A stretch of DNA of 64,000 nt, from positions 10,578,266-10,642,265 of the forward strand of contig OZ025872.1 of assembly GCA_964019415.1 (NCBI GenBank), written 5' to 3'. This DNA is from Ianthella basta (lineage: Eukaryota; Porifera; Demospongiae; Verongiida; Ianthellidae). The position numbers were made by a program, and so were the translations under genes. Positions 4,003 through 52,800 of this stretch are shown here, in pieces. Position 1 is the first letter of the stretch. Every line of letters starts with the position of its first letter. The notes beneath the pieces are model-generated. The model saw only the letters and a list, made by a program, of their open reading frames with translations. It was not told the origin of the DNA and searched no databases.

Positions 4003-6078
4003 TTATTCAGTTTGTGTAGTTGCATGTTCACATTTGTAGCATTCCATGAAGTACTTGCCAGAAAGCATCTCATGAGCAATGTGTACATAGAAGGATTTCA
4101 ACTTAGGCAGAAGAATATCGAACCAATAGTCTAGGTCAAACCAAATACGCTCCACAAATACGACATCACCACTGTACCCCACAAAGTCACACCACTCCAA
4201 TTCCATTATTGCCATTTCACCTTGCACCTGTGCATAGTACATATGTGAGGTGCGCAAACGCAGTGTACCATCTTCACCTTTGCCCAAACAAAACTTGTTA
4301 CCAAAGCGTTCAGCTATCTCTTGAGGTGTAAGGTGCACAACTGACTCATTGTTAATGCTGAATGGACACTTGATCTCCAATGCACCGCAGCAACAAGTAT
4401 CAACACTATGGCATGTCACGTAACCATCAGCTGATGCTCCAATGTAAGACATTGTTGGGCACAAGGCAAGCCCTGTTTCCCTTACCGACATCTTCTCACC
4501 TACTGCCTCTCGTTCCTGCATGTACTTCCTGCGTGCCTTCTCCTCATTGTCTCTGCCCCACTTCATTGCTGGTGTTGAAACAAACTTCTTCTGGTAACCC
4601 ATAATTGACTTCACTAAAACAGCTGGGTTCGTGTCCTCTTTCCTTCGTAGAATTTCACCAAACCTTGAACTTGTCAGACGACCATTGTGCAATGCAAGCC
4701 AAAGAGTAGAATCTGTTTGCTTCCGGGTGTTCTCTTCAATAGCTAGTACCATCTCATGTGGTAATATCATTCCCTCTATGAGCTCTTGTACTTGAGATGG
4801 TGATGGGTCAAGAATGAAGCGCTTAGGATCAACCTGAACATGATAAAGTGACAAGGTTCAAAGTCTCGAATGCACCACTGCATGCATGTATATATGTACA
4901 TGTAGATTTCTCACCTTTGAAAACTGGGGGTCCCAAAATATTACAGTACTCCATAGTCTGTCTTCAATCGGGCTCTCTGTGGTTGACATGCTAGAATCAG
5001 GAACCGCAGCAGGATACGTAGATGTCGTCCAGAACTGCAGCAGACCACAAGATGGCTGACCTTCTTTCAGGTTGTCAAGCAATGTGGACTTGGCAACCTC
5101 GTCCAAAGTCCTATCGTCTGGATGCCTTGGATCAAATGGTATAGTGCCTGTATTCACTGCAGTGGGCAATGTGTGTGAACCATGACTGGGCTTGACAAAG
5201 GAGATGTCCCTTATTGCTGCAGGGTTGACTACCTTCCTTGGGGCCTGGTGCCAACGCATGGGCATCGATGTTCTGGAAAGATCTGTCGGTAAGCTGTTAA
5301 CTCCTGTACGACAATGGTGCTCAAGATAAAAGAGGAGAGCTGCCACATGATTGCAGGCTTGCCCCAACCTATGTATGGTCACAAAGCAAAGTTTAATGAT
5401 TGTGACTTCATGTTATTGACGTGTATTACACAGAGCAACTTACCCTGAAATACAGCTACACTGAGCTGAATACACATCTCCAGTGTCACCATTCAGTGCA
5501 ACAAATGTTTCCATTGGTACATCCATACTGAGGGAATGTTGAACGAAGCCGCGTACATACACTATCCTTGGATCGGATGTTTTGCAGTCATGCAGCCAGA
5601 CATTGCTGACGAACCCATCAGCAAAGAAACGATAGGCTTTGAGGGACTTGAATGCTTGCATGGACTGCATGTCAAAGGTTTTGTCTCTTCCACACACCAA
5701 ATACAACAATAAATTCATAAAGGTGAAATCTACCAGCACTCCACGCCTTTGTTTTGCCCAATCAGTCACTGTTGAGAATCCTGGAAGAGACTGGAGCTTG
5801 GTTCTGACGTGGTCAGTGAGGTAGGTGAAGCCAGACAAATCAGCACTCGTGGCTTCATCCGGACGATGAACACAGCCCAATTCTGCCATGCAGACGATCC
5901 TTTCAACGATGTCGGCTTTCCTAGAGACGTGGGACAGCTTAATCGATAGCCGCTTAGCTAGACAACGTAGCTCGGGAACTTTGCGAGTCGTCAGGCGAAG
6001 AGTTAAAGACTGCCGTTCCGCGTCACTGCAGTCTTCAGCCACCAACAAACTGTCTTCCAGATCATCTTTGCTTGCCAT
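4003..6078 (-). CDS. SWIM zinc finger / YqaJ-like nuclease of transposon
   Basis: Three exons on the minus strand join in phase: 6078-5444, 5368-4915 and 4833-4003, giving about 639 residues. The N-terminal half has a SAP-like helical stretch. A SWIM finger is split by the first intron: CSC at the end of exon 1, and CNH in exon 2. Exon 3 carries the YqaJ (PD-(D/E)XK exonuclease) pattern: GRLTSSRFGEIL, MKWGRDNE, GASADGYV, LEIKCPF and YYAQVQGEMA. YqaJ enzymes are lambda-exonuclease relatives that resect DNA ends, so the protein probably helps process transposition intermediates. Both introns have standard GT-AG ends and no stop interrupts the frame. It lies tail to tail with the transposase, about 110 bases apart. 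Confidence 0.85.
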
Positions 6079-13243: not shown

Positions 13244-13663
13244 CTGACAGAGGAGGATGTGATGAAGGGCCAGCCTCACCAACCAGTGGTGATAAGCAAG
13301 AGGTGAGCCTACTGAAGTATGGGTGTGGTGTGTATACCTCTTCATTGTTGAGAAACTGACGGGAAAAGTGTCTGTAAATGTGCATTCTGTCCTCAGCCAT
13401 GCACTGCTCAGCCTGCCCACATGTCAGTCTTGGATGTGTGCTGTACAGAGGTGTACCAGAGGATGATGCAGTGCTTATACTGTCATTGTGGCTTTTCAAT
13501 TTCCTGGGTGTACTTCCCTGCATGGTGTGTTGTGTTTCTGGGGAGATGTCCAGAGTATTCCCTTAGTTTTACATGATGGTGTATTTACATGTATGTGCAC
13601 ATGTTTGTGTGTTGTGATATTATCAGGTTGTATCTGGTTGACTTTGTCTGCTTTGTGTTGCAG

Positions 13664-15332
13664 TCCTTCCATACCAAGCTCGGCTGTTACTACTCAAAGG
13701 AGTGCATCCAAGACAACCCTCTGCTGGCCTATTCCACCATGCAGTATGTCAACCTTAATTTGGTGCAGCCAACACAGCGATGCCCGGTAGCAGGGAGAGT
13801 TGACGAGGCAGTTTCAGTGCACCTGGCCAAGGGAGGTATTAAACAGGTGCCTCACGAGAAGGTGCCACTCGACTACAAACACATTCTCTCCTTCTCCCCT
13901 CCTGCTAGTATCTCCAGAAAGCGGGTGCTCATCGAGGGTGTACAAGGTAGTGGCAAGAGCACTCTCGTCCAGCGAATGTGCCTCGATTGGTCGGTTGGCC
14001 GTTTTGCACAGGACTACAAAGTAGTCATCCAAGTCACCCTGAGGAGTCTCCCCAAGGACCAGAAGCTGAGCCTAAAAGACCTCATCTTCACATCAGTCAG
14101 AGATGCAGCTATCGTTCAAGAGGTCACTGACTTCGTTACTACACACCAAGGACAGGGGGTCCTGTTCATATTTGACGGCTTTGACGAGCTGTCAGAAGGA
14201 ATGCGTGAGAAGTCTCCTGTTTGTGACATCATCACTGGCCATCTTGCCCCTCACTCATCATTCATGGTCACTACTCGCCCCATCTCTGCAGAGAGCCTCT
14301 ACCACCGTGTGGACAGGAGGGTTGAGATCACTGGATTCGGAGAGGAAGAAGTGGAGGAATTCATCATGGAGTACTTTGCCTCCAACCCATCAGCAGGAAA
14401 GAAGCTCCTGTCGACCCTCTCCTGTTGCCCTCACATCATGAACTTCTGCTTCACCCCACTCCTGTGTCTGATGGTGTGCTATGTAACATCCCTCGGTGAC
14501 AACTCTCCAGAACTCCTTCTGTCACTGCACCAGTTGTTTGAGTGTGTCATCATCCACACCATCAACCACAACCTGAAGCGAATGGGCAAGAAGGAACACG
14601 CTGACAGTTTCCAAGATGTAATGCGACTCTTTCCCAGCTTCAATACACTGATCCAATTGGCACAGGAGGGGATTGAAAAGGACACCATCATTTTCTCCGA
14701 CCTCGACTTTGAAGTGGACAGTGCCTTCCATGGCTTGTTCAACTGTGTTAAAGCACAGAATCGGTTTGGGATCATCTCTTGCACGTGGCACTTCTTGCAC
14801 CTGACCCTGCAGGAGTTCATGGCGGCCCTCGCTGTGACCAAGAAGACACCAGAGGAGCAGGTCACCTTCTGGAGACGACACCTCACCTTGAGGTACAACA
14901 AGGAGGGGGACTTTGTTCTGGCAGATGACAGGAACAGGACTATGTTCCTGTTCTTCAGTGGGCTTAGTGGTCTCAGCACCCCGGGCATGCAGAGGATGCT
15001 ACTGGAGACTGTCAACACAGTAGTGAAGCCCAGCATTAGAGAGAGTGCCCCACTTCCTGAACTGTGTGAAGTCGTAGCTGAGAGTGGCAATGAACAGCTG
15101 GCTCAGTCCATCCTGTCCCCATGTGGACCAACAGTGGACATTGATGTGAACTGCCTCATTGGTGTTGGCATAGCGTGGTGTGTCGCTCAGCACTGCAAGC
15201 AGGTGGAAGGGGCTGGAATCAGGGTTGGAGGGATGCCTGTCCGCTCATCAGCTATCACAAGCTTTATCTCTCAGCTGGGAGATGTCTCCACACTAACAAG
15301 AGTGGAGCTGCTAGTTATGGTGGTTTATGATG
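13664..15332 (+). CDS. NACHT ATPase exon of NLR copy A
   Basis: One large open exon runs from acceptor GTTGCAG to donor GATG|GTAAGA and encodes 556 codons plus one base. Walker A is GVQGSGKST (13937-13963), Walker B is FIFDGFDEL (14165-14191) and a sensor-1-like FMVTTRP follows near 14262. A winged-helix and helical region extends to a conserved WHFLHLTLQEFMAAL block, typical of the NACHT-associated C-terminal part. The double-acidic Walker B (DGFDEL) places it in the NACHT family rather than plant-type NB-ARC. The domain would bind and hydrolyse ATP to drive oligomerisation. It is a close paralogue of the exon at 46418-48083, with the same phase and a length differing by one codon. Confidence 0.92.
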
Positions 15333-16475
15333 GTAAGATATCCCAAGGGCAGTTGAACCCATTTACAGCTGAGGACTGCTTGATTGTCAAGTGTTAAGAC
15401 TGAGAAGGACACTTAATAGTTGTAATAATCTTAATCTTACCTCGCAATGATGCTCTTTTGGTAGTGCTCTGATTACTATACTCAACCACTGAGGTCCAGT
15501 ACAAGTCTGTTGTTTGTAGCTGTTTAAGAAGAAGGTTGACACAACAGATGGTTACACTGTACACACTGAATGGCTGTCAGATTTACTGAGGAGCCTCCAG
15601 CTTGCAATGCCACTTTGTATTTGGATTTGAATTGGGAATGGGAAGTATAGACACGCACTGTGTGTGATTATGAGTAACAGACGTGTGTCCATGGTCCCCA
15701 CATGGATGTTGTGCATTCTGTATACGTACCTTACCTTCCAAAATTGTGTGGAAATCTTTTCATGACTTTTTATACAGTACTTGTAGATACTCCAGATCTG
15801 TCAACTGTCAGGGAGTTTCTACTGACACAGGGTAGTTATAACATGAAACCGCTAATATAGCCGCTAACTTTGCACCTTTTTGAAACGTTATATTTTCGCT
15901 CTCTGAATGACTCTAAGGATAAAGATTGGTAGGATAATAAAGTATGATCTTAGCTTTATCGGAAAAGTCGATCACCGCACCGGCAAAAGCTTGGATGACG
16001 ATGTTTGATAGTGTTGATAATGGTATACTCACCGACATTCAGAGCAAAACCGGCATATCTAGACGACGCCTGAAATACGCGTAGCTGCACTGGTTAGGTG
16101 TAGGGGAATGTAAAGCTTCAGAATCGACTGAGAACTGGGGATATACGCGTCTGTTTGCAGAGAATATAAAGAAAAACACCTTTTCGGTAGAAACTTTGCC
16201 ACAATTCACACGTTCGAATGCAATTTTCTCTGAAGCAGACTACGGTACACTTCTGTTCTCAGTCGAATATGAAGGTATATTTACTACTAAACACGATGAT
16301 GCGCAGCACACTCACCGAGAAGGAGCTCTAGGTATGCCGTTTTTTATACAAAATTCCCTGAGCAACAAACCGGCCATTGTGATGACGTCAACAAACGTCA
16401 CTATAAGTTATCGACTAGCAATGTGTTAAAGGGATGTTAAGATGCGGCTCGTCAACTGAAGTGCAGCAGATCGAG

Positions 16476-19400
16476 CAGGGGCGTAGGAAGTAGTTTCAGT
16501 AAGGGGGGGGCTGTAGTGGTATGATAAAGGTTCGCGAGCGGAGTGAGCGAAAAAATTTTTTTCACCTTTCAATATTCTGTCATTTCAATGTCTACGTGGT
16601 CACAGCTTCAAGTATTAAACTCACAGCATACAGAACGCACACAAAGCTACTAAAAAAGGTACAGTTTTAAACTGAATTTGCTAATCAAACTGAAAGCATA
16701 CAACACTTACACAAAAAGCTACTGAAAAGGTTCAGTATTAAAACTTTCCAAAATAGTTCATGCGGTGGCTGTTTGCTGCCACAAAGTCCTTGGCAACGGA
16801 AATAAGATTTAAAGATTCAGTTCGTTCTGAATGCACATAAAGTAGGAACAAGTTGTTAAGTCGCTGCTGAGTCATGGAACTCCTCAAAAAGGTCTTTATT
16901 CGTCGAAGGGAAGAGAAAGACCTCTCAGCAGTAGCACTTGTGACAGGGAATGTGAGGTACGCCCGGATCAGTTTGTCTACTTCACTGAGCATGCCCCTGA
17001 CAATGGTACTTTGGCTGAGTGTGTCAGCAAGTGTCCTCACATTCGTCACTTTCTTTACACTGACAGCAGTACCCGCAAAAACAGTGCTGATAGCCTCTGG
17101 CAACATCAGCAGCTGGACTTTCAAACGAGCAAGATCGATCTTTCCTTGAAAGTATTCGACAACAGATTCTGGGATTTCTGAGACATCCTCACCATTTGCA
17201 GCATCGAGCAGCAGTGATTCCACCACACAGACAAAGGCAAGATCAGATTGATCGAATCGCTTCTCTACTTCCCCGCCAGCATTGTCGAAAGCTTCGAAGT
17301 AGGCTTGACGATACTTCTCTTCGGGAGATGTGTAGCGGTGTGGCTGGGCTCCTTCATCAAATCTCCTGGGTACTCTCCGGGGACGGGGTAGGACAGGTTC
17401 ATCAGTCAAACCGCTTGATGACTTCAGAACATCCTGGTAAAAAGTAGTGAAGGCTGCCTCACTTCGCAATGAAGTATAATGCGATGTCAGGAGCCGGGCA
17501 CCTCTGGTTCCTTCAGCAACAGTTATGTCCTTTGCCTGAAGGTTTGTTGAAAACTGCTCAGCTGCAGAGAAGACCAAGTGTGCAAGCTTCAAGCTGAAGA
17601 AGGTGTCAAAGGATTCCATTTGAGTCAACAAGCCTTTGCCTTTGGCAGCATATTCATCATGGCCTTGCTGAACAATGTCAAGTGTTGACATGAGGGCTTG
17701 GTAATTCTGCAGGATGCTGTTTATGGCAGAATGGCGAACAGTCCATCGCGTAGGGTAGAGGGTTCTCAGCGATGGAGACAAATCCGAGGTGCCATCTGTC
17801 AAGGTGATCTCCTTGCACATGCTTTCAAAGAGATGCAACCTCTTGGGGGAAAACTTGATCAATTGCACAAGCTGGAAAATGAATTCCATGCAGTTCCGCA
17901 GCAGTTCGCACTTCCTTGTCACCTCTTGGACGCACAAATTCAAGCTGTGAGCAAAGCAGTGGACATATAGACAATGGTCAGCTTCTTTCTTCATAAGAGC
18001 CTGCACACCATTCCGCACACCACTCATGTTGGCTGCACCATCATAAGCTTGACCAATGCACCTCTCAATTGGCAGAGAACACCTCACCAACACGTCCTTA
18101 ATGACATTGAACAATGTCAGTGCCCTGGTGTCTGGAAGTTGGACTAGGCCAAGTGGTGCTTCATGGATGTCATAGCTGGAGTCCACCCAACGAATCGCAA
18201 TGCACATCTGCTCATTGTGCGAGATGTCGGTAGCTTCATCAGCAATCAGTGCGAAGAAGTCTGCCGTGCAGATATCTTGCAGCATCTGTCGCAAAATCGT
18301 CTGGCCACATATGGTAACGATCTCGTTGATGATTTCAGGAGAGATGTAGTCCCGCTTTTTCAGCCATGAACCCAGTGGTGCGCAATCTTTAGCTTGCAGC
18401 AGAAGCAGCTGGTATAGGTTACCCTCAAAGGCAGCACTGTCTTCATGGTGACCACGGAACGGCAAGCCCTGTCTGGCCAAAAAACGAACACACTCCAGTA
18501 CCTTCAACATCATGGCACGATGGTTCTTCTGGTCTGCATCATGCTGCCTACTCAGTTGCACTGCAACATCTGTGGTGCTGGACTTGGCAGCAATCTTCAT
18601 CATTGCCTCACGGTGCATTTCACTCTTTTCATGCTCAGCAAATCGCTGTAGAGCTTTCTTCCAATTGGAGAACCCCCCTTCTACAAATGGCGAATTGTAG
18701 CGCTTAGAGAAGGTCACCAAGTCCTGGCTCCTTGCACAGCAGCACACTTGACAAAAGACTTTGTATGAGGATGTGCACACGCTGATCCACGGGTGTTTTG
18801 TATACCAGCTGAGTTGAATAGACCTAGAGTACGATGTCTGCTGCCCATGGGGAGTTTTGGATCCCTCCAATTCCTTAGGTTGATGAACTACAGCGAAATT
18901 CGCACAGCACAAACAATCACATGCACTTGGGCCGTCAACTCGTGGCAAACTGTCTGGTGCCTTATCGTTGAATTTGCTTAGCGAGTCACCGTCATCATTC
19001 ATGGCTTCAGAGTCGACAATTTGTTCAGTGCTCGGTTGGTTAGCAACAGTTTCGGTGCTCAGTGGGTCAGCAACGGGCTCAGTGCTTGATGAGGCGCTTA
19101 TGGGCTCATTGCTCGCCGTTAGTGAGGCTTCCTGCGGCAAGGTATTGTCTTGGTCGATTTCTGCAAGACAAATAGGGTACGTACAAATAAAAGCAAACTG
19201 TTTATTCCACGTGCGACACACGCAATGGTGACAGTCACGGCAGCGGTGCAGTTTAACTGCTGTATACATATCGTCACGGTGGCATGAAGCATAGACGCTG
19301 TGTCGCAGGTGCATGCTGTGTAACCTTTACTAACCTCGTACAGTTACCGCTCGCTGTGAAGCCCGAGTCGGGGAGAAGAAAGAACGTATGCTTTGCTGTG

Positions 19401-30938: not shown

Positions 30939-31558
30939 GTCAGTCTTCCTCGAGGCGAGGCTTGCAACGGTTTTCGGCAATGGATATGATTGAAACGTAC
31001 ATACAGTACGTAGCTATTACAATATTCTTTGCCCTTGTCCTGAAATAAGAAACAGAATCATACCACTGCTCTGCAATGGCTTGCAAGCTGCTGTTTCAGT
31101 GTGATGTGGAAAGCCGCTCCATGTTCGAATCCCCCAATGCTAGCTGGCTAGCGGCTAACTAGCTAGCTAACTTTGCGTGTTTAAATAACGGCATTTGATA
31201 CATCGAAATAAAATCGTACAAGAAAGCGGACAATTGCAACACGTACCACATTACCTTGTAGTGATATACGCTGAAGGAGACGTCTGGGAAAACTTCCATT
31301 GAGGAGATATAGCTAGCTGTACGGAAGGCCTGTCACGCACAAAGTAGGCACATTAGGCAAGTATCCTAAGAGATAGATCCCAATTCACCGGTTTACAGAG
31401 TTCTGGTGGCGATGCGGACTGCAGCTACACACATTTCCACTGCCGAAAACCAGATCCCAATTCACCGGTTTACAGAGTTCTGGTGGCGATGCGGACTGCA
31501 GCTACACACATTTCCACTGCCGAAAACCATTGCGCGCTTCGCCTCGAGGAAGACTGAC
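30939..31558. mobile_element. Non-autonomous element with ~45-bp inverted ends
   Basis: GTCAGTCTTCCTCGAGGCGA at 30939 is mirrored by a segment ending GAGGAAGACTGAC at 31558; the match extends inward for about 45 bases with a few changes (GGTTTTCGGCA is shared). There is no coding content. I found no clear target duplication. Confidence 0.65.
31375..31528. repeat. Exact 77-bp tandem duplication
   Basis: Two identical 77-base copies starting AGATCCCAATTCACCGG lie at 31375-31451 and 31452-31528, just inside the right end of the element above. Confidence 0.92.
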
Positions 31559-32589: not shown

Positions 32590-32897
32590 GTGGGGGCAGG
32601 AGTGTTGACGTGGTGCGTAGGTATACTATAACCATATAAGTGCACTATCTAGCTAGGGGGGGGGACCACATCATTATTAAAACAGGGGTATACAATCAGT
32701 GATAATGGTGTGATAGAAAAGGGGTAGAACCTCGGACACAGGGTTACAGGTTGCTAAGCAGTAGAGACTGCATTGCTAGGGAATGCCCTGGCAAGGTAAG
32801 GGTGAGAAAAAGCTAGAGGGAACAAAGTGGGGAAAACATAACTTTGGGGAACAAAAGGACTGTATGGGGGTACAATTTGGGGGATATATAGGCAAGT

Positions 32898-33080
32898 AAT
32901 ACATGGATATGTAAGGGGACGGTGGTGCTACATGTTAACAATAATACATGGATATGTAAAGGGACGGTGGTGCTAAATGTGGACAATAATACATGGATAT
33001 GTAAAGGGGTGGTGGTGCTACATGTGAACAATAATACATGGATATGTAAAGGGGTGGTGGTGCTACATGTGAACAATACA
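32898..33080. repeat. Four 45-bp tandem repeats in the LINE 3' region
   Basis: Copies beginning ACATGGATATGTAAAGGGAC occur at 32901, 32946, 32991 and 33036, an exact period of 45. They lie just past the stop of the minus-strand LINE protein, so they are probably in its 3' untranslated region. Confidence 0.92.
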
Positions 33081-33146
33081 CTAAACATAACATTAAAAAA
33101 AAGCAAAAAACAGTGATTAATGGGCATATTGGCGGTCAATTGGGGC

Positions 33147-36100
33147 TCAGTCTCCATTTGGGCAACCGGCACCCAGGTTCCAGGGTGATTTGTGGGCTGA
33201 AAAGATAATGTAGCTCCCAGAGATGGCTGCTTTAGCCGCGTCGGTCAGGGCTTTACGTCTGTCAGAGGGTTTGCTCTGGGGGGCAGCAAGCCTTAGAGCC
33301 GTATAAGCCTCGTGTGTGTAGTGGCCTAGGCAGCCAATCTCAATTGTCAGCAGTTGAACTTGGTAACCCTGGGCAGATAGGTCCGAAGCCAAAAGCTGGT
33401 AGTTGGTCTTCCCCTGCTTCCGGGCTCTAGCATTCTTGATGCTGGTGAGGTTGTTCCAGGGCACAGTGAGTTCCAACATGGTAGCACGCTTACCATCCAC
33501 AATAAAGAGATCCGGCCGAGCGGTGGTCCCAATGATGGTGGGGGGAATGGTTGCTGGAGGAGATTCACATGCTCTGTGATCCGGCAGGTCTGCATAGACG
33601 GAGGCTTCTGGATTGAACCTCTGCAAGAATGGGAGTAGGGCGGTGAGCACCATGTCATGGCGCCATGTGTACCTGCCATCAGTCAGGGCTGTTGGGCAGC
33701 AATTCAACACGTGTTGCACGTTGCAGAGGGGGCCATTGCACAGAGGGCACTTCCGGTTAAGTGAGTAGCCCCATCGGACCAGGGAGCTTGGGCATAGTAG
33801 ACAGTCACAGCTTGCCCTCAGTATAAAGGACAGCTGACCCGCTGGCATTCCTGTGAGGAAGCGCTGCCAGAGGTGGTCTTCTGCACCAAGAGGGAGGATG
33901 CCTAAAAGACCATTCTGGACAGTGAGCTGGCTGAGATGGTTCTCCCAATCCTGCACCTGCTTCTCTCTCGCCAGCTTCTTACACTTGGCAAGCACCTGCG
34001 GCTTCTTAGGGGCATGTGGCTCAGCTCTGCACTGGGCAACGGCTGTTTGGAACCGCTCCACAGCCTTTGGGTCAAGGTAGGAGGCCTTCAGGTAAGACGG
34101 GTCCTGCAGAGAGGGGAGACACTCAAGAACATGTGGATCAGTAGAGTGAGCCACTGTTGTCAGCAGTGACATCTTGGCCTCTTCCAGGAATAGCGGGAGG
34201 AACTTCAGGTCAAGGCTGTTCGGATGAAAAATAGCAGATGGAGTGGTGCAGCGAGGGAGGTGCAGCCACTTCTTCACCATTCTTGTGAGCAGCCTCTGAA
34301 GGGAATAGACATGGCTCTTGGGGATGTCATTGACCATGAGGTGGAAGTATAGGGATGGTAGCAGTGAGTGGTTCAACATCCATGTCTTGTATTCACCTCT
34401 GACTGGTGTTTCGTCCAGAGCTGTGAGTTGGGGCAGAATGAGTGCCTTCAACCGCTGTGAAGCGCTCTGGCCGGTAGACTTGGGGCAGTCGGCTAGGGTC
34501 TTCCCAAGGAACTTGGTCGGGTGGTCATGGATGTTGGTGGTGCTGCCAGAAGAGAGGGGAAAGGTGGTGTTGGGGACAATCCTCTTACCATTGAATGCCA
34601 GGGAGATACACTTTGATGGCTTCAGGTGGAGATCCAGGCATTTACAGCGGGCGTCGATGAGGTGGAGGGCAGACTTGTGTTCTTCACGATTGGTCGATAT
34701 CAGGGACAGGTCATCACAGTATGCCTTGGCTCTGTGGGGACGGGTTGAGAAGAACTTGATGTCTTGGAGCTTTGCCCTCACTTTTGGGACCTTTGCAGTG
34801 GGTGGCGTGCTGTCCTTGGACAAGAAATGTCTGGAGTTGCCAGTGGCAAGGTGCCACTGCACTGTGCGAAGGTCAACCGTTTCGGTGCTGCCGTTGGCGT
34901 AGAGGACTGTGGACAGGCCTGCGGGCGAGTACTCGGTGACAGAGCAGCGGTACCAACCAGGGGGTTCATCTGATGAGGACTCGTTCCACTCCACATAGAT
35001 ATGAGCGTTCACAGGGGGCAAGCCAGCTGAAGATGGGACGGGGTATCTGAGGGAGAAGCCTGATGCCTTGTCCATGTTAGCTAGTTCCACAATGGGGTTG
35101 AAGGCAATGAGGAAGATCATTGGAGACAGAGTGTCACCTTGAAAAACCCCACGTTCTATCGGGAACACATCGGTTGTCCAGTTAGGTAAGGAGGCGAAGC
35201 CCTTCAATTGAGAGTAGGCGTTGCTGATGTAGCTGATGACTGGGGTGGGGATGCATATGTGTTTTAGCATATCTGTGATCAGCTGGTGAGAGATGGAGCC
35301 AAAGGCATTGCTGAGGTCCAGGAAGGTCATATACAGCGGGAGACCATTCGTCTTGGCGTTGCTCAGGATGGCTGAGGTGGTGAAGATATGCTCAATCACA
35401 CCTGGGATTCCAGATAGGAAGCCTTTCTGTGTAGAAGGGTCGATGATATCGTTTGCAAGGACGAAGTGTTCTAGGCGACTGGCAATGATGCGGTTGAATA
35501 GCTTTCCCACTGTGGAGGTCAGGGCAATGGGACGGAAGGAGCTAGGCTCAGATGGGGGACCTGACTTGTGTACAAGGGGGATCTTTCCAACACACCAGGA
35601 TGGGGGGCAGCTGTGTTCATCAAGTAGGATGCGGGAGAATAAGATAGCAAGGAAATGGTGGGTGGTCGGTAGGTGTTTCAGGTGATGATAGGAAATGCCG
35701 TTGCAGCCGGGGGATGACTTGGAGGAGCATTTCCTCAGGGCACGTTTGACTTGGCTAGGGGTAATGGGAGACATGTCAAAAGGTTTCCTAATTAGGGGGG
35801 TGGGCATCACGGAGTGGATCCAATCAGGGAGGCCAGCATAGGTGCACAATTCCTTGCTGAATGATGTTCGTAGGAACTGGTGCGCACTTTGTGCGCTGAA
35901 CTCTGGAGGTTGGTTCTTCTTTGACAGAAGAATAGATCTAGCAAACTCGAAAGGATTCTGGCGGTACTTCCTCTCCTGTTGTAGGGTGGAGCGGTGGTTA
36001 GCGGCGTCAGCCGCCACTTTGGCCACTTTGTTATGTGCCCTAACTGCATCTAAGAAGGGCCTAGGGTTGGTGGAGATGGACCCACGAAGGCTGTTCTTGG

Positions 36101-36386
36101 CCATAGCCAAGTTCCGTGCTGTCTTCTGGATTGAAGAGAGGCGGTGAGGCCCACGCGGGTTGATTCCCGGACGCTTTTCCTTCAGGAGGTTGCTCCGCGA
36201 TAAGGTGCTAACGGTGATGGTGACAAACGACTCCTCGGCAGCGGAGATACTAATAGAACGAGATGATAACTGGTGATGTAGGACATCTAGGTCAGCCTGT
36301 AAGTCAGCGTTGACAACTCGCCAGTCGATCGGAAGGTTTGCGACAAGGGCGGCTCCTGATTCGGGTAAGGGGTCTCCACCCGCCAT
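33147..36386 (-). CDS. Reverse transcriptase with RLE and Tudor-like insert
   Basis: An uninterrupted 1,079-codon frame. RT motif A is FLDLSNAFGSI (about 355-365), motif B is GVFQGDTLSP (413-422) and motif C is AYCDDLSLIS (555-564). Between B and C, 130 residues are inserted instead of the usual few dozen. The insert contains YVEWNES, PPGWYRCSVTEYSPAG and VLYANGSTETVDLRTVQW (about 464-511), the strand pattern of a Tudor-like barrel. Near the C-terminus a CCHC finger (CPLCNGPLCNVQHVLNC, 880-896) precedes a restriction-like endonuclease (RPDLFI, MLELTVPW, then Lys-rich), as in R2/NeSL/HERO-type LINEs. The protein would nick target DNA and prime cDNA synthesis there. No N-terminal zinc fingers are seen. 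The open frame suggests a recent copy. Confidence 0.9.
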   Translation of the reverse strand: MAGGDPLPESGAALVANLPIDWRVVNADLQADLDVLHHQLSSRSISISAAEESFVTITVSTLSRSNLLKEKRPGINPRGPHRLSSIQKTARNLAMAKNSLRGSISTNPRPFLDAVRAHNKVAKVAADAANHRSTLQQERKYRQNPFEFARSILLSKKNQPPEFSAQSAHQFLRTSFSKELCTYAGLPDWIHSVMPTPLIRKPFDMSPITPSQVKRALRKCSSKSSPGCNGISYHHLKHLPTTHHFLAILFSRILLDEHSCPPSWCVGKIPLVHKSGPPSEPSSFRPIALTSTVGKLFNRIIASRLEHFVLANDIIDPSTQKGFLSGIPGVIEHIFTTSAILSNAKTNGLPLYMTFLDLSNAFGSISHQLITDMLKHICIPTPVISYISNAYSQLKGFASLPNWTTDVFPIERGVFQGDTLSPMIFLIAFNPIVELANMDKASGFSLRYPVPSSAGLPPVNAHIYVEWNESSSDEPPGWYRCSVTEYSPAGLSTVLYANGSTETVDLRTVQWHLATGNSRHFLSKDSTPPTAKVPKVRAKLQDIKFFSTRPHRAKAYCDDLSLISTNREEHKSALHLIDARCKCLDLHLKPSKCISLAFNGKRIVPNTTFPLSSGSTTNIHDHPTKFLGKTLADCPKSTGQSASQRLKALILPQLTALDETPVRGEYKTWMLNHSLLPSLYFHLMVNDIPKSHVYSLQRLLTRMVKKWLHLPRCTTPSAIFHPNSLDLKFLPLFLEEAKMSLLTTVAHSTDPHVLECLPSLQDPSYLKASYLDPKAVERFQTAVAQCRAEPHAPKKPQVLAKCKKLAREKQVQDWENHLSQLTVQNGLLGILPLGAEDHLWQRFLTGMPAGQLSFILRASCDCLLCPSSLVRWGYSLNRKCPLCNGPLCNVQHVLNCCPTALTDGRYTWRHDMVLTALLPFLQRFNPEASVYADLPDHRACESPPATIPPTIIGTTARPDLFIVDGKRATMLELTVPWNNLTSIKNARARKQGKTNYQLLASDLSAQGYQVQLLTIEIGCLGHYTHEAYTALRLAAPQSKPSDRRKALTDAAKAAISGSYIIFSAHKSPWNLGAGCPNGD

Positions 36387-36564
36387 CTTGTCACACCTTC
36401 AAAAAGAAACAAAAAAAAACAAAAAAAAACGGATAACGTATAACGGACTGGCTAGCGGACACAGTGCATGAACGGAGGACCGTCCCCAGTCCTGGTCGCG
36501 TGGTGCATGGTGAGGGTCTACAGGGACGGGTCTAGCCTTGATCGCACATCCAGGCCTATTTTAG

Positions 36565-36963
36565 GATCAACTGACTTTAACGGACACGGGTATATTATGG
36601 CATAATGACGTCACCGGAAGCATTTTGTGACAACCCCGACATCTTTGGGCTAGCTTCGGTTGCTTCAACAACCTAGCTTTGGGCACACTCTATAACACAC
36701 AAAACATAACCCTAACGCTAACTTTACAGATGGCCCAAAGCTAAGTTGTTATAGCGGGCGCCCAAGCCTAAGTTGTTATAGCGTGCTCCCAAGGCTAAGT
36801 TGTTATAGCGGGCGCCCAAAGCTAAGTTGTTATAGAGTGTGCCTAAAGCTAAGTTCTTGAAGAGGCAACCGAAGCTAGCCCAAAGATGTTGGGGTTGTCA
36901 CAGAATGCTTCCTGTGACGTCATTATACCATAAAATCGTCGTGTCCGTTAAAGTCAGTTGATC
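36565..36963. mobile_element. ~400-bp foldback element, MULE-like
   Basis: Inverted arms of about 130 bases begin GATCAACTGACTTTAACGGA at 36565 and end in the mirror at 36963. CCTATTTTAG flanks both sides: a 10-bp duplication, or 8 bp if the repeat is read from GGATC. Long arms and 8-10 bp duplications fit Mutator-like elements. The centre holds about four units of GCTAAGTTGTTATAGCGGGC spaced about 31 bases. Confidence 0.8.
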
Positions 36964-37243
36964 CCTATTTTAGTTATATAGCTATACTAGACGAATGCAA
37001 GGCATTGAGGGGGCAAGCACATGCCATTTGTCGTCATCATCGCGCCGACTGCTCACATGCACAAGGGACGAGTTGACTGTTGTGTCATCACTGACTGCAC
37101 ACGTACACTGGGTGGACGTGACGTACCACGACTTCCAGTTTCCCACCACCCAGAAGAGAGGGGCTTCGCTTTGCTTGCCCCAACAAGGTGACAAGGCCTG
37201 GCACATTGCTTGAGTTGTGTAGGTTGCAGCCCACAGTGCAAGC

Positions 37244-43800: not shown

Positions 43801-46800
43801 GTCCTGGCTTGGTCGATCACTGTTGTCTCCTCCCATCTGATTGGATGGTGGTTCTCCCACGCATGTTCTGCAAGGGCTGACTTCTCCAGTGTCCCCTTCT
43901 GACAGGCATCCCGGTGCTCTTTCATTCTCGTCTCGAGCCTTCTCAGTGTCTCCCCAATGTAGGTCTTGCCACAGCTGCATGGGAATTGGTACACCACCTT
44001 GGACTTCTTCTCCAGCACCAGTGTGTCTTTCACCTTGGTTAGCATGGAACGCAGAGACAGTCCAGACCTGAAGACGACCTTCATGCCGAACTTCCTACAG
44101 ACCCGTCTGATGTCCTCACCGACTCCTTCTGTGTAGGGAAGCATCACCAGTGGGGGTCTGCGTCCCTCCTCTGGCAGTGGCGCCTCATTGGTCTCCACAT
44201 CTCGCCTGGAAGGAATGGAAGAGGAGCGGATGAAGTTACTGGGGTAACCGTTCTGTCTCAGCACCTCGGTGAGATGACACTCTTCCTTCTGTAAGTTCTC
44301 CTGCCCGGTGGTGATGCTCCTTGCTCTGTTGTACAGACATCTGATCAGCCCTCTTTTGACGTGAGATGGATGGTGGGACCGGAAGTCCAGGTACTGGTCC
44401 GTGTGTGTGGGCTTCCTGTAGACAGTGACATCCAAGTTGCCATCATCTTTCCTCTGGAGCAGGGCGTCGAGAAAGGGGAGGCTCCCTTCCTTCTCCACTT
44501 CCACAGTGAACCACATCTAGGAATGCATGTGGTGGCCGTAATATTGTAACTTGCACTGTGTGGTGGTGGTGGTAGTAGTATGTGGTAGCAGCGCCTGATG
44601 TGGTGGTCTGTTTTCTTGCAGCTCTAGCACATAATATTATACTGGTGTGCTCATTGCAACTTTCACTGTGGTGGTGGTGATGGCAGTTGTATTTATGTAT
44701 GTGGTGGTGTAGTAGCTGGATATTGTGGCTGGATAGTTGTGAGCAAGTGTACATGTTGGTGCTGCTCTGCTCCAGCATAGCGGCAAATGCATACAAATTG
44801 GTGTCAAAATGTGATTGTTCAAAACATTGCCACCATTTTGTGACTAATTAAGCAATACTGCTAATGACATGAGGAAATTGGTCATCTAACTACATCCACT
44901 TAGTATCATGACTTAGCAGGGCTGGGTCAGTAAGATATGCAATGAACCTCATTTTTCTCGGCCATTTTGCAACTAATTAAGAAATCCTGCTAATGACATG
45001 AACAGTTGGATTATCTGGCTAGGTCCATCAAGTGTCATGACTGAGCGGGCCTGTCTGGTTAAATAAATCGTACACCTCACATATGTCGTCCATTTTGAGA
45101 CTAATTAAGAAATCCCGCTAATAACATAGGAAGGTGGACCACTTGGATGTGTCCACCAAGCTTCACGTCTCAACGAGCCCAGTTGCATTAATATACAAGA
45201 TACCACTATGCATCAATATAAATGCACCATACATTAAGTGTTATGCTATGCACATTTATATTAGGATTTTGCGGGCTGCTTGTAGAACAACGAAGGCCTA
45301 ATTAAAATTCTGCCTCATTTAAAAGTCTTAAAATCTCCCATACTTCAAAGGCACACCGATCACATGTTCGTGAGGGGTCCCTAACCCCCCGGGAATTATA
45401 TTATATTATATTATATTATATTATATTATATTATATTAATTCTGCTAATGACATGAGCAAATGGGCCATGTAACTATGTCCACTTAGTATCACTACTTAG
45501 CGGGGCCAGTTTGGTGGGATATGCATTGAACCTCGCTTTTCTCGGCCATTTTGCGACTAATTAAGAAATCCTGTTATTGACATGAACAGTCGGATTATCT
45601 GGCTAGGTCCACTAAGTGTCATGACCGAGCGGGCCTGGCTGATTGAATAAATCATACACCTAACATATGTCGGCCATTTTGAGGCTAATTAAGAAATCCT
45701 GCTATTAACATAAGAAGGTGGACCACTTGGACGTGCCCACCAAGTTTCACGTCTCAACAAGCTCAGTTGCATTAATATACAAAATACCACTATGCATCAA
45801 TATAAATGCGCCATACATTAAGTGTTCTCCTATGTGCATTTATATTAGCATTTTGCAGGCTGCTTGTAGAAGAATGAAGACTTAATTAAAAATTCTGTCT
45901 CACTTAAAAGTGTTAAAATCTCCCATATTTCAAAGCCATACCTAGCACATGTTCATGAGGGTTGCCAATCCCCCTGGGAATTATTTATTTATATTATATT
46001 ATATTATATTATATTATTTACTTTAGATTACTGGTGTATATTGTAACTTGCACTGTATATACGTACTTCACTGCATGCATGAAAAATGTACTTCACACAT
46101 AGACATCTGAATGGAGAGTGTGACTGCATAATATATAATATATATTATAATAATGCAGCCTCCACTGCCTCCCTGAATTATCTACTTATTCATTAGATTA
46201 TTGCAATATCATACACATGCAGGTACTGGTACAGTACTGTATACCTGTATGATATAGTCTTCACATACATCTGCACATCTTATACATTCCTCATGAGGAA
46301 TATGTTTCTGCCACACAATTTAAACCTATAATTCTATAAGATTGTACAGCAAGTGCAAAGATCTTGTAATTTATATATAGTATCATTTCCTTGTCTTATG
46401 TTTTCTTTGTGTTGCAGTCCCTCCGTGCCAAGCTGGGCTGCTACTACTCTAAGGAGTGCATCCAAGACAACCCTTTGCTGGCCTCTTCCACCATGCAGTA
46501 TGTGAAACTCAACCTGATACAGTCAAAACAGCGTCGGCCGATAGCAGGGAAGATTGAAAAAGCAGTATCAGTACACCTGGCCAGGGGAGGTGTTAAACAG
46601 GTGCCTCGTGAGAAGGTGCCGCTCGACTACGAACACATCCTCTCCTTCTCCCCTCCTGCTGGTATCTCCAGAAAGCGGGTGCTCATCGAGGGTGTACCGG
46701 GTAGTGGCAAGAGCACTCTCGTCCAGCGAATGTGCCACGATTGGTCGGTTGGCCATTTTGCACAGGACTACAAAGTAGTCATCCAAGTCACCCTGAGGAG

Positions 46801-49800
46801 TCTTCCCAAGGACCAGAAGCTGAGCCTGGAAGACCTCATCTTCACATCAATCGGGGATGCAGCTATCGTTCAAGAGGTCACTGACTTCGTTACTACCCAC
46901 CTAGGACAAGGGGTCCTGTTCATCTTCGATGGATTTGATGAGCTGTTAGAGGAAATGCGCAAGAAGTCGCTAGTTCATGAAATTATTACTGGCCATCTTG
47001 CCCCTCAGTCATCCTTCATGGTGACAACTCGCCCCATCTCTGCGGAGAGCCTCTACCACATTGTAGACAGGAGGGTGGAGATCAGTGGATTTGGAGAGGA
47101 AGAAGTGAAGAAATTCATCACAGAGTACTTTGCCTCCAACCCATCAGTAGGAAAGAAGCTCCTGTTGACCCTCTCCCGTCACCCTCATATCAAAAATCTC
47201 TGCTTCACCCCACTCCTGTTGCTGATGGTATGTTATGTAACATCCCTCGGTGACGACTCTCCAGAACTCCTTCTGTCACTGCACCAGTTGTTTGAGTGTG
47301 TCATCATCCACACCATCAACCACAACCTGGAGCGAGCAGGTCGGAAGGAACACATTGGCAGTCTCCAAGATGTACTTCGGCTCTTTCCCAGCTTCAGCAG
47401 ACTGATTCAATTGGCACAGGAGGGGATTGAAAAGGACACCATCATTTTCTCCAACCTCGACTTTGAAGTTGACAGTGCCTTCTATGGCTTGTTCAACTGC
47501 GTTAAAGCACAGAATCGGTTCGGGATCATCTCTTGCACGTGGCACTTTCTGCATCTGACCCTGCAGGAGTTCATGGCAGCCCTCGCTATGGCTAAGAAGA
47601 CACCAGAGGAGCAGGTCACCTTCTGGAGACATCACCTCACATTAAGGTGCAACAAGAGGGGGCGCTTTGTTCTGGCAGATGACAGGAACAGGACTATGTT
47701 CCTGTTCTTCAGTGGACTGAGTGGCCTCAGCACCCCGGGCATGCAGAGGATGCTACTGGAGACCCTTAACACAGTAGTGAAGCCCAGCATTAGGTGGGGT
47801 ACCCCACTTCATGCACTGTGTGAAGTCGTAGCTGAGAGTGGCAATGAACAGTTGGCTCTGTCCATCCTGTCCCCATGTGGACCAACAGTGGATATTGATA
47901 GGGACTGCCTCAAGGGTGTTGGCATAGCGTGGTGTGTCGCTCAGCACTGCAAGCAGGTGGAAGGGGCTGGAATTAGGGTTGGAGGGGATGTCTGCTCATC
48001 GGATGTCACTAGCTTTATCTCTCAGCTAGGAGATGTCTCCACACTAACAAGAGTGAAACTGCCAAGCATGGAGGTTGATTATGGTAAGTTATCCCAAGGG
48101 AATTGAACCCATTTACAACTGAAGACTACTTCACTGTCGTGTTATTTGACAAGGACAATAGTTCATCATCATCATCAATTTTAATTTGCGATCAGGATGG
48201 TTCCTTCAGCTCAAATTGGCTGATGTCCTGCAAGTATACATACAATACAATACTTGGAATAATCTTATTCTTACTTCCCAATGATGCTCTTTTGGTAGTG
48301 CTCTGATTACTACACTCAACCACTGAGATTCAGTACACAGAGCTGTCAAGTTACCTTAATGAGGATGCTACAAGTTGGATCCAATGACGTAAATTAATAC
48401 AATTGTATGCATAATTTACATATTATTAGTATACTACTAATCCTAAATAGATCCCATTGCCATGGTAACGTGCGTCTAAACGCTGTTTCTAAACGTCGTA
48501 GACACCCGGGTGTTGTTTCGCGCCGTGGTCTATTTCGTCTAGCCGTGTTCTAATTCGACGCGCGGCGTTCGCGCCTATGCTCTAAATGCCGATTTAGAGC
48601 ATGGGCGTGGCACGCGCGTCGTTCGCGCTATGCTCTAATTGCCGATTTAGAGCATGGGCGTGGCACGCGCAGCGTTCGCGCCTATGCTCTAAATAGCGAT
48701 TTAGAGCATGGGCGTGGCTTGGGCCGTGGTCTATAGCAGAGAAACTGCAGCTGCGATAACAATAGTAGCTAACTCTGCAACATACAATGCACAGTTCGCT
48801 CGGCTTACTTGTTTCGTCGACAACAGGGTAACGCAACAGTCCGGCATGCAGCGGCCTACGAACCAGAGCCGAAAAAGAAACTGGTTACGAGCTGGTAACA
48901 GGCTTAGGACACCGATCTGGGAAACGCTGTGGCTGACGGGGCTGACAGTGAGTAAGCTTACGTTTAGCTTACGCGCCGCATCCACTGCCGAACTTTAGGA
49001 ACGTCTGCTGCGAGATAACAAACCCCATGACCAAACGGCGTTTACTCGGCCATTGTCAGAAATTGCTAACTACTTCCGGAAGACGCGTGATGACGCAATT
49101 ACGAGTAGTTAAACTGATTCGCTGCTGCTCCTTGCCCAATCGTTGGGATCTATAACACTTAAATGCTGACCAATCGGTGTCTCTGAAGATTTAGACCACT
49201 CGGCACTCGGGCGCTTCGCGCCCTCGTGTCTTGTGCTCTAAATCTCAGAGACACCTCTTGGTCAGCATTTAACTATTACTTAATTAAGGCATTTCATGTA
49301 GCTAAATCATAAATCCATGTCTATGACATCACTATGTCAATGACAAAATGGCGGCAGGGTATCAGGTATCAGGTATTCTTATTTTACCTGGGGAACTGTT
49401 AGCCAATGGCTACTGTAAATGGCACCCAGAAAAGAAAGGCAAAAATACATGAACACAAAACAAACACTAGTACAAACAAGCAAATTTTATTAAATAGTGG
49501 CAATATAAACATAATATTTTGGCTAAGTTATGTTAATGGGTCAATTTTGTGCAACTGATAAATACCTAAAAAGTTGGAGTAAATTGAAATAATGATCTTG
49601 ATAGCTAGTAAGGACAGTGTTCACAATAAGTATGCCTCACAGAGTTTTGAAAAAGCTCCAAAGTCTGCACATGTTCTGATGTTCTTCGGAAGAGACCGCC
49701 ACAAGGAAGCACCAGCAAAACTAAAAGCCTTTTGCCCGAAGCAAGTTCTTGAAGAAGGAAGATTGAGTTGGCAAGTAGAAGAAGAACGAGTGTTGTAGTG

Positions 49801-52800
49801 AGAGTTTGGTGAAGAGAAAAGTTGAGAAAGATAAGGAGGAGACTGAGAAGACAAACGTTTAAACATGGTTTGGGCCAGGTGGAGCTTTCTTCTTGCAGAA
49901 AGGGTGGAGAGACCAAGTTCACCACGAGCGGAAGAAGCAGAATAATCTCTACGCCTACGAAGAACAGTACGGCAAGCAAAGTTCAGCAGGGTTTCCAAGC
50001 GAAGAGCTTCATCCCTAGTGCACCCAGACCAAACAACATCACAGTAGTCAAAAGTGGGAAGAATGTAGGACTTGAGATAGAGAAGGAGAGGCTGAGGGAG
50101 AAACCAAGAAAGACGACGTAGGAGATTGAGGCCACGGGTGACCTTGTTGCAGACTGTCGATGTGGTCAGACCAGGTGAGAGTGTCGTTCACCAAGACTCC
50201 AAGAAACTTGAAAAACCGAACCTGTTCTACATCAATACCATCAATCATCAGCTCCAGTCCACTGTTGACCTTCTTTCGTGCTGAGTGTATCAGCATGCAC
50301 TTGGTTTTCAAGGTGTTGAGCTGCAGACCATTTCTTTCTAGCCACAAGTTTGCCAAGTCAAGAGTGAGTTGAAGAGCAGAGTTGAGAGAAGGAAGATCAT
50401 CACTAATGATGAAGATAGTGGTGTCATCAGGAGGAAGGACAGAAGGAAGATCATTGATGAAGACAGAGAAGAGGGTAGGACCAAGGACTGAGCCTTGTGG
50501 TATACCTGAGCATGGAAAGGCAAGTGAAGAGTAGGAATTAGCAACCCTAGTAACATGAGAACGATTAGAGAGGTATGACTTGAACCAAGAAACAGTGGAT
50601 GGAGAAAGACCAAGATGGAACAGCTTTGATAGGAGAAGATCATGATTCACAGTGTCGAAGGCCTTGGAAATGTCTAGAAATACTACTACAAGCTTCTTGC
50701 TGTCTAGTGCTTTGTACCACTTATCAAGACAATGAAGGAGAAGAGTTTGGGTAGAGTGAGAAGGACGGAAGCCAGACTGGTAAGGAAAGAGAAGGTTGTT
50801 GGAATTGAGATGAACAGAAAGCTGCTTTTGGACATGTTTTTCTAGAAGTTTGCTGGTAACAGGAAGAAGGGAGATAGGACGATAGTTTGAGGGAATAGCA
50901 CAGTCACCACCTTTGTGAAGTGGCTTAATGGAAGCACACTTCCAGGGTCCAGGGAAGACAGATGAAGCAATGGATGAGTTCAGGATAGAGCACAGAGGGT
51001 AGCAAATGACAGAGCGAGCAGCAATGAGGGCAGGGGAAGGAATAAGATCAAGACCAGCAGCACGCCTTGGTTTCAGAGAAGCAAGAACATCCTCACACCA
51101 CTCAGGGGTGGTAGGGGAAAGGGAAAGGGTAGGTGGATGGCGAGACTGAATAGGAGGTGAAGGAGAGGATGGAGAAAGACTGGAGGAGGTGACAGAGGCA
51201 AAGTGGCCATTGAGAGTGTTAGCGATGGAGGCAGAATCAGAGTTGAAGGAAGACCAGTTGCTGGAAGATGAGGTGGAAGAAGTAGCCAGCTTCAGTGTGT
51301 TCCAGATAGCTGAGGGATGTGACTTTCTACTAATCAGCTGGTGGAAGTACTCATACTTGGCTTTGCGCTGTAACCAGACAACACGGTTTCACTGAACCTT
51401 GTATATGTCTCTAGAAGCAACAGAAGGGTTCCGACGGTAGAAGCGGAAAAGCCGGTCACGTCTGTCCATCTCACATTGAATTGTCTTATCAATCCAAGGT
51501 GTGGGATTCTTTTTTACTCTAACTGTCTTCAATGGGGCATGTATATCTAGAACTTCCATGAATAGGTTGTTAAATGTATCTACTTTGTCATTGGGATCAT
51601 CAAATACATTAATGATGGACCAAGGCACTAAAGAGAGATCAGCTTCAAAGATGGATTTTGAGTAGTTTTTGAAGGAACAATGGGTGATTAAGGTGGGAGG
51701 AGGTTTGGGAACAGCACAGTTAAGTTGAAGAAGGATGGACAGGTGGTCAGAAAATGAGGAATCAAGAATAAGGGATTTGGAGATAGGAACATCTTGTGAA
51801 ACAAGAAACAGGTCCAAGATAGAGTTAGAAGCACCAGAGTAGCGAGTAGGATGGGAGATAGGTTGTGTGTGAGAGAATGGGAAGTTATGAAGTGTTGGAA
51901 TGCCTTGGAGTAAGGTTTGTCCAGGTTAGACATGTCAATGTTGAAATCTCCGCAGGCAAGCACATGTTTCCTAGAGACCATCACAGACTCGATATTGTCA
52001 CAAACATCATGGACGGACTGGGCAGAAGAACTAGTTGGACGGTAGAAGCAACCAAGGGCAAGGGAAGGGTGGAAGCAGGCTGACCAGAAGTAGAGACACC
52101 AGAGGAAAGTACACAGCAGGGCAGATGATCAGCACAGTATATAGCAACACCACCGCCGCAACGGTTGCGATCACTATCCAGGTATATGTATCTCACTGTC
52201 ACCAACCGAAGTGTCCAACCATGTTTCTGAAATGGCCAGGACTTCAGGGCGATGAGTAAACACGAGGGCAGCAACATCATCACAGTGGCGTAGCAGACTT
52301 CGGGCGTTCAGGTGCACCACGGTTAGACTGGTCTTCCTGATCGTCTTCTTTCCATTAGCGGTAGTGTTTGTGTCGCACCTCCTGTGAAGGCGCTGTTGCC
52401 CACAAACAGGTCCGGGGTTTGCCTCGACATCGCCGCACAGCACCAGCAAGAGAAACCAAGGACTAGACAGTACTTTCGGTGGAGTAGAGCACCTCTTACG
52501 TTCCGAAGAGCACCGAACATCTACCCGCCGAGGCAAGCGGGGAGAACCGGAACGTAGCGCGAGGGCTGCTGACAAAGAAACTTCGAGTTCAGGAGCAAGC
52601 AACACACAGTTAGATTGTTCAGGATGGATTTGGCTTGTTCTGAAGTCCAGGGCACAGGAGGCGAGGCGGGCAGCGAGAACGAGCAGGGCGCCAGCAATAA
52701 CAACTTTCTGACCTTCCGCCATTTTTTTCACACCTTTCCATTCTCAAGGGTAAACAGTCAGCGACTTGCGGTAAACTTCAACTTGGGAGAAGCGCATGAT

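Follow-up and report, generated by a model that had tools for sequence, protein, structure and literature searches.

A predicted Tudor-type domain within the reverse transcriptase of an R2-like retrotransposon of the sponge Ianthella basta

Results

The window analysed here is a stretch of 64,000 nucleotides from the Ianthella basta genome (C5:10578266-10642265), whose minus strand carries a long interspersed nuclear element (LINE) with an apparent Tudor-type domain inserted into its reverse transcriptase (RT). The single open reading frame (ORF) of this element lies at 33147-36386 (minus strand) and encodes a protein of 1079 amino acids with RT, thumb/linker, CCHC zinc knuckle and restriction-like endonuclease (RLE). 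A preliminary description of the locus had reported an intact frame of 1,079 codons, and the frame indeed runs uninterrupted through 1079 codons to its stop. The whole element of about 3.74 kb spans 32657-36397 (minus strand), beginning with GGTGTGACAAGATGG and finishing in a C-rich 3′ tail, and, to within a few bases, these borders delimit the DNA that other copies have in common with the window. Nine places in the genome, the window counted, have the same 5′ border, with the element starting 11-12 bases upstream of the ATG, and the 3′ end is a run of C. Four tandem 45-bp repeats are found in the 3′ untranslated region (32897-33078, minus strand), their number differing between copies.

Other LINE places in the same genome, searched as a 209-Mb assembly of 96 contigs, are designated here by L-numbers. 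By eye, the ten 5′ and 17 3′ flanks compared look unrelated, L028 and L029 excepted, whose 3′ flanks match each other; the element is therefore dispersed and not tied to one DNA site. The copy L018/L022 (C1:10686633-10689867) has the stretch GAGGCCGGG...CGAATAGTGGCCGG in common between its 5′ and 3′ flanks, which could be a long target-site duplication or the mark of an insertion into a repeat.

The sequence of the LINE protein assigns it to the R2-like RLE LINEs, because R2 proteins are its nearest solved relatives, it carries a CX2CX8HX4C knuckle, and its RPD...ELTVP core aligns to R2. A Pfam scan returned RVT_1 (1.6e-23) with zf-RVT below threshold, and the closest solved proteins were R2 (9nl3, 3.8e-25; 9dou, 6.6e-25), LINE-1 ORF2p being weaker (1.9e-11 to 6.7e-11). 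The RT fingers and palm up to helix B occupy residues 195-433 (35088-35804), RT motif B is GVFQGDTLSP at residues 413-422 (35121-35150), and RT motif C is AYCDDL at residues 555-560 (34707-34724), all on the minus strand. The zinc knuckle (residues 880-897; 33696-33749, minus strand) was recognised from the sequence, the R2 alignment and the pattern CX2-3CX7-8HX4C, which precedes the endonuclease of RLE LINEs in the accessible part of PMC5678591; its first two Cys, the His and the last Cys align with those of the sister element L044. The endonuclease core (residues 957-1062; 33201-33518, minus strand) was placed by aligning the profile A7 with the R2 structure 9nl3 (whole-chain E 5.8e-7; the single stretches are weaker alone, at 0.0073 and 1.5), which sets RPD opposite the KPD of R2, and all four rows of A7 share RPD and ELTVP. 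Pfam, scanned with an E-value limit of 1, showed no N-terminal zinc finger or Myb domain, no dedicated profile or structure search having been made of residues 1-194, and a PHROGs search with the whole protein gave no match.

The inserted segment (approximately residues 443-552; 34731-35060, minus strand) lies between motifs B and C and is absent from R2 and from the sister families. The two motifs are separated by 132 residues, in agreement with the preliminary estimate of about 130, and the count from QGD to DD is 135; the segment contains YVEWNES at residue 464, PPGWYRC at residue 475 and VLYANGSTETVDL at residue 494. In phmmer comparisons with R2 structures the alignment ends at residue 433 and restarts at residue 553, and R2 9nl3 bridges this interval with residues 634-651 only, that is, with 18 residues between the aligned blocks against 119 in the window protein. 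Direct counting gave 38 residues from QGD to DD in each of three sister families of the genome, so that the window protein has about 97 extra, and the insert is likewise missing from the other RT fragment of the window, at 50048-50953 (minus strand).

Five families of the genome carry the insert (that of the window, L033, L034, L038/L041/L042 and L039/L040), more than chance would give. In its alignment A1 (10 rows), the rows from the other four families show 36-65% identity, and 14 columns are invariant (L456, P458, Y464, W467, E469, S472, E474, P475, G477, W478, Y479, Y486, G490 and Y496). A1 excludes L015 (internal stop), L035 (cut short), L021/L026/L030 and L019/L023 (each one copy with a frame break), the near-copies L014, L017/L032 and L018/L022, and the later finds L051, L063/L067 and L068 together with fragments; L024 and L041 stop early within A1, and the alignment A2 additionally omits L038 and L024.

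Frame breaks in L019/L023, L033, L038 and L041 cluster near residues 444-459, where the insert begins, through chance decay or at a slippery spot. A programmed frameshift at this position was considered and set aside, and the breaks were taken as decay, because the frame continues without a break in the window copy and several others.

Residues 454-523 (34818-35027, minus strand) form the putative Tudor core, delimited from an AlphaFold model, Foldseek/VIA and hhalign to host Tudor domains. The model is a five-strand barrel (residues 462-467, 477-486, 492-496, 501-504 and 511-513) with a predicted local distance difference test score of 86-90 in the core. Foldseek and structural alignment both placed the RDM15 Tudor domain (7de9) first, with a root-mean-square deviation of 1.4 Å over 55/58 residues, and the same chain was the best single-stretch match in the sequence-profile search; the structural matches score moderately, and certain barrels other than Tudor rank nearly as high. 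When the insert profile was aligned by hhalign to three host Tudor domains, the E-value was 2e-8 and all 300 column shuffles scored far lower. Single-sequence searches with the insert were uninformative, the signal coming from alignments only, and the insert did not reach the Pfam gathering score (TUDOR match 0.27, with 3/10 shuffles giving 0.13-0.24).

An accidental likeness in a lineage-specific RT loop would be one alternative, as Prp8 and the RTs of group II introns have insertions named 4a (accessible part of PMC5678591), each single-sequence match is weak and the structural scores are moderate. It is strongly disfavoured, since the profile-profile match lies beyond its shuffles and the predicted barrel and the sequence profile reach the same Tudor chain. 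Sequence profiles and model together thus make the insert very probably a Tudor-type domain. The barrel proposed in the preliminary description accordingly appears in the predicted structure in place of an ordinary RT loop; of the Tudor/SGF29-like pattern named there, the Tudor part is upheld, and SGF29 is among the fold matches at a lower rank than RDM15.

We assign a probability of about 0.55 to the reading that the captured Tudor domain is a methyl-lysine reader docking the complex of the element on chromatin, mark binding and target choice being its conjectural parts. Structure 7DE9 shows the RDM15 Tudor domain with H3K4me1, in which W616, Y623 and Y641 form the cage and D643 and D645 serve the choice of the monomethyl state (accessible part of PMC8184781). 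Their aromatic counterparts in the window protein would be W467 (34986-34988), Y479 (34950-34952) and Y496 (34899-34901), all on the minus strand; W467 was matched to Trp616 by strand order, at the end of strand 1 (the 7de9 profile alignment starts after it), and the other two to Tyr623 and Tyr641 by that alignment and the cage spacing in the same source. These positions, taken from alignment and strand order, are invariant in all 10 rows of A1, over five families and down to 36% identity. The preliminary description had proposed a check on whether the insert is conserved with its aromatic cage: four further families keep both the segment and the three aromatics, and more distant sisters are without the segment. 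The acidic pair behind the H3K4me1 choice of RDM15 is not conserved: at the positions of D643 and D645 the window protein has N498 and S500, L033 has D/S, L034 D/V, L042 C/S and L039 G/E, with Asp at the D643 position in L033 and L034 only. Because the cage aromatics are invariant and the places of D643 and D645 vary, the alignment suggests that a methyl-lysine-type cage has been retained and that its ligand, if any, is unlike that of RDM15.

A true Tudor domain might also read no mark at all, and instead brace the palm, make a protein-protein contact, or contact template RNA or target DNA. SH3-like barrels often serve as brace or contact, PWWP on single-stranded DNA (6kcp, 6kco) and TraI chains from the relaxosome of the F plasmid occur among the fold matches, and the site within the polymerase fits a nucleic-acid role; we nevertheless regard this as unlikely, in view of the invariance of three residues coincident with a known cage and of the open frames without the domain in sister families. 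Clearly less probable again is binding of the domain to methylated arginine on host proteins (e.g. Piwi or Sm), by which the element would dock on or evade the PIWI-interacting RNA machinery. This would agree with the origin of the matched host profile in a multi-Tudor gene of TDRD type and with the presence of the TDRD1 extended Tudor among the fold matches. The three host Tudor domains conserve a DYGN stretch, which supplies the fourth aromatic of the cage and the Asn that serves dimethylarginine binding. That motif is absent from the insert, where hhalign puts a gap and a Ser, and the closest folds are methyl-lysine readers, both of which argue against arginine binding.

The families L044-L046, L078 and L079 are sisters without the Tudor insert. 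L044-L046 are 34% identical to the window protein over residues 107-437 and 30% over residues 555-1063, in the same order, and the ELTVP endonuclease motif is present in L044. In a genome search with the L044 protein, in which only the best candidates were scored, 47 of the 51 places listed span the insertion site (that of L044 included), and all 47 are without the insert, with length differences of -2 to +4 codons; among these matches identity to L044 ranges from 41 to 100%, so this sister lineage is diverse. The RT tree, in which L044/L045 sit next to L039 on a long branch of 1.24 (support 0.64), was used with L044/L045 as outgroup; in its alignment A5 the aligner spread 55 residues of the L044 rows into insert columns, where the direct count from QGD to DD is 38. 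Since the more distant sister families are without it, the insert is read as a gain, and as a single gain because the tree is rooted at L044/L045 and because R2 is without it. From sequences and model, one retrotransposon lineage is thus taken to have acquired a Tudor-type domain and retained it. Genome searches with the insert (E up to 10; 25 and 33 places listed, not each checked for an RT frame) identified no donor gene.

Two sister-lineage RTs without the insert, at G000:C3:12549596-12552247 and G000:C23:1738830-1741448, lie in open frames of 2955 and 2790 codons, compared with the usual approximately 1100, possibly through fusion with other domains.

Between the window copy and L033, the nonsynonymous distance (dN) of the insert is 0.28, similar to that of the RT upstream (0.21) and downstream (0.27), so the insert seems, as judged from these sequences, to be conserved to much the same degree as the polymerase. 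The silent distance (dS) is saturated for the insert and the upstream part and about 3.1 downstream; by the NG86 method it was saturated in 6/10 comparisons, for which no dN/dS ratio is claimed. Elsewhere dN/dS was 0.086 for window-L033 downstream (dS 3.1), 0.27 for the window-L042 core (dS 2.6) and 0.42 for the L039-L040 core (dS 0.09), and the L042-L038 core had dN 0 and dS 0.126.

Outside this genome, pattern and relative searches of viral and genome contig collections and tblastn in phages and plasmids found no relatives, and four viral and seven bacterial pattern loci reached at best E 0.58 by tblastn. The collections are prokaryotic and viral, and for that reason the result is silent on other animals. 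Similar segments between motifs B and C may occur in unannotated coral proteins.

Around the LINE, the window contains two NACHT ORFs at 13589-15397 and 46391-48106 (both plus strand) that are 84% identical over about 571 amino acids, with a match to NLRC4 HD2 below threshold; they appear to be duplicated NLR-type genes, one on each side of the LINE. At 16738-19314 (minus strand) lies an intact frame of 858 residues for a hAT-type transposase, containing regions of DUF4371 and of hAT dimerisation, and an ORF resembling YqaJ/viral alkaline exonuclease is found at 4003-4854 (minus strand; Pfam YqaJ 5.9e-18). About 170 bp upstream of the 5′ end of the LINE is an inverted repeat (36564-36964) with 108-nt arms that are 90% complementary and 27-bp tandem repeats between them (36733-36855), perhaps a separate small transposon. 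A perfect 77-bp tandem duplication occupies 31375-31529.

Discussion

The features described above can be arranged into a model in which an R2-like RLE LINE lineage would have captured a Tudor domain within the loop that joins RT4 (motif B) to RT5 (motif C). The captured domain would belong to the royal family, with a fold nearest methyl-lysine readers of the RDM15/PHF20/PHF1/SGF29 type, and its barrel might bind a methyl-lysine in a histone tail or in some other chromatin protein. The protein-RNA complex of the element could thereby be held on chosen chromatin while the endonuclease nicks and target-primed reverse transcription starts, and such docking may bias, or take the place of, the targeting by DNA sequence in R2-type relatives. 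Docking on methylated chromatin during target-primed reverse transcription, taken as a complete mechanism, stands between somewhat below and slightly above even odds. Somewhat more tentative is the further proposal that this is a LINE RT with a built-in methyl-lysine reader in which chromatin state, not DNA sequence, selects the site, that is, a chromatin-targeted, non-site-specific R2-like relative.

A domain that can be removed or mutated in its cage, in a lineage with insert-less sisters, gives a direct test of how LINEs that lack a fixed DNA target select their sites. The B-C loop of an R2-like RT would also appear to tolerate a folded domain, which is relevant to gene insertion with R2-type enzymes. 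Among the literature searched (a part of it, by titles and the starts of abstracts), many works concern host control of transposons and no description of a Tudor domain in a LINE RT was found.

The window protein resembles R2 and other RLE LINEs (R2Tg 9dou, Platysternon R2 9nl2, R2Bm 8gh6) in its alignable RT core, thumb, CCHC knuckle and C-terminal restriction-like endonuclease, with one ORF in each. R2 targets 28S rRNA genes (accessible part of PMC13188248); whereas R2 proper inserts at this 28S site, the copies of the window LINE have unrelated flanks (by eye; no ribosomal DNA sequence compared), and the 28S location that defines the R2 clade is not seen in them.

With the RDM15 Tudor domain (7de9, from Arabidopsis, an H3K4me1 reader) the insert has in common the fold and the three cage aromatics; it differs in the missing acidic pair, in the greater length of the loop joining strands 1 and 2, which has an invariant S-x-EP, and in sitting within a polymerase. 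The Tudor domains of SGF29, PHF1, PHF20 and Spindlin, which are stand-alone or tandem readers in chromatin complexes, have the same barrel fold, with a lower or tied structural match. The 4a segment of Prp8 and group II intron RTs is likewise an RT insertion and, by its number, would lie between RT4 and RT5; the accessible part of PMC5678591 lists insertions 0, 2a, 3a and 6a for LINEs and reports 4a for Prp8 and group II introns.

Chromoviruses, like the present element, have a chromatin-reader-type domain in a retroelement protein, theirs being a chromodomain in long terminal repeat (LTR) elements and the one described here a Tudor domain inside a LINE RT. The chromodomain of chromoviruses sits at the end of the integrase. 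The chromodomain is described as an accessory domain in the accessible part of PMC6338049, and chromodomains in LTR elements are the nearest known analogy to the domain within this LINE.
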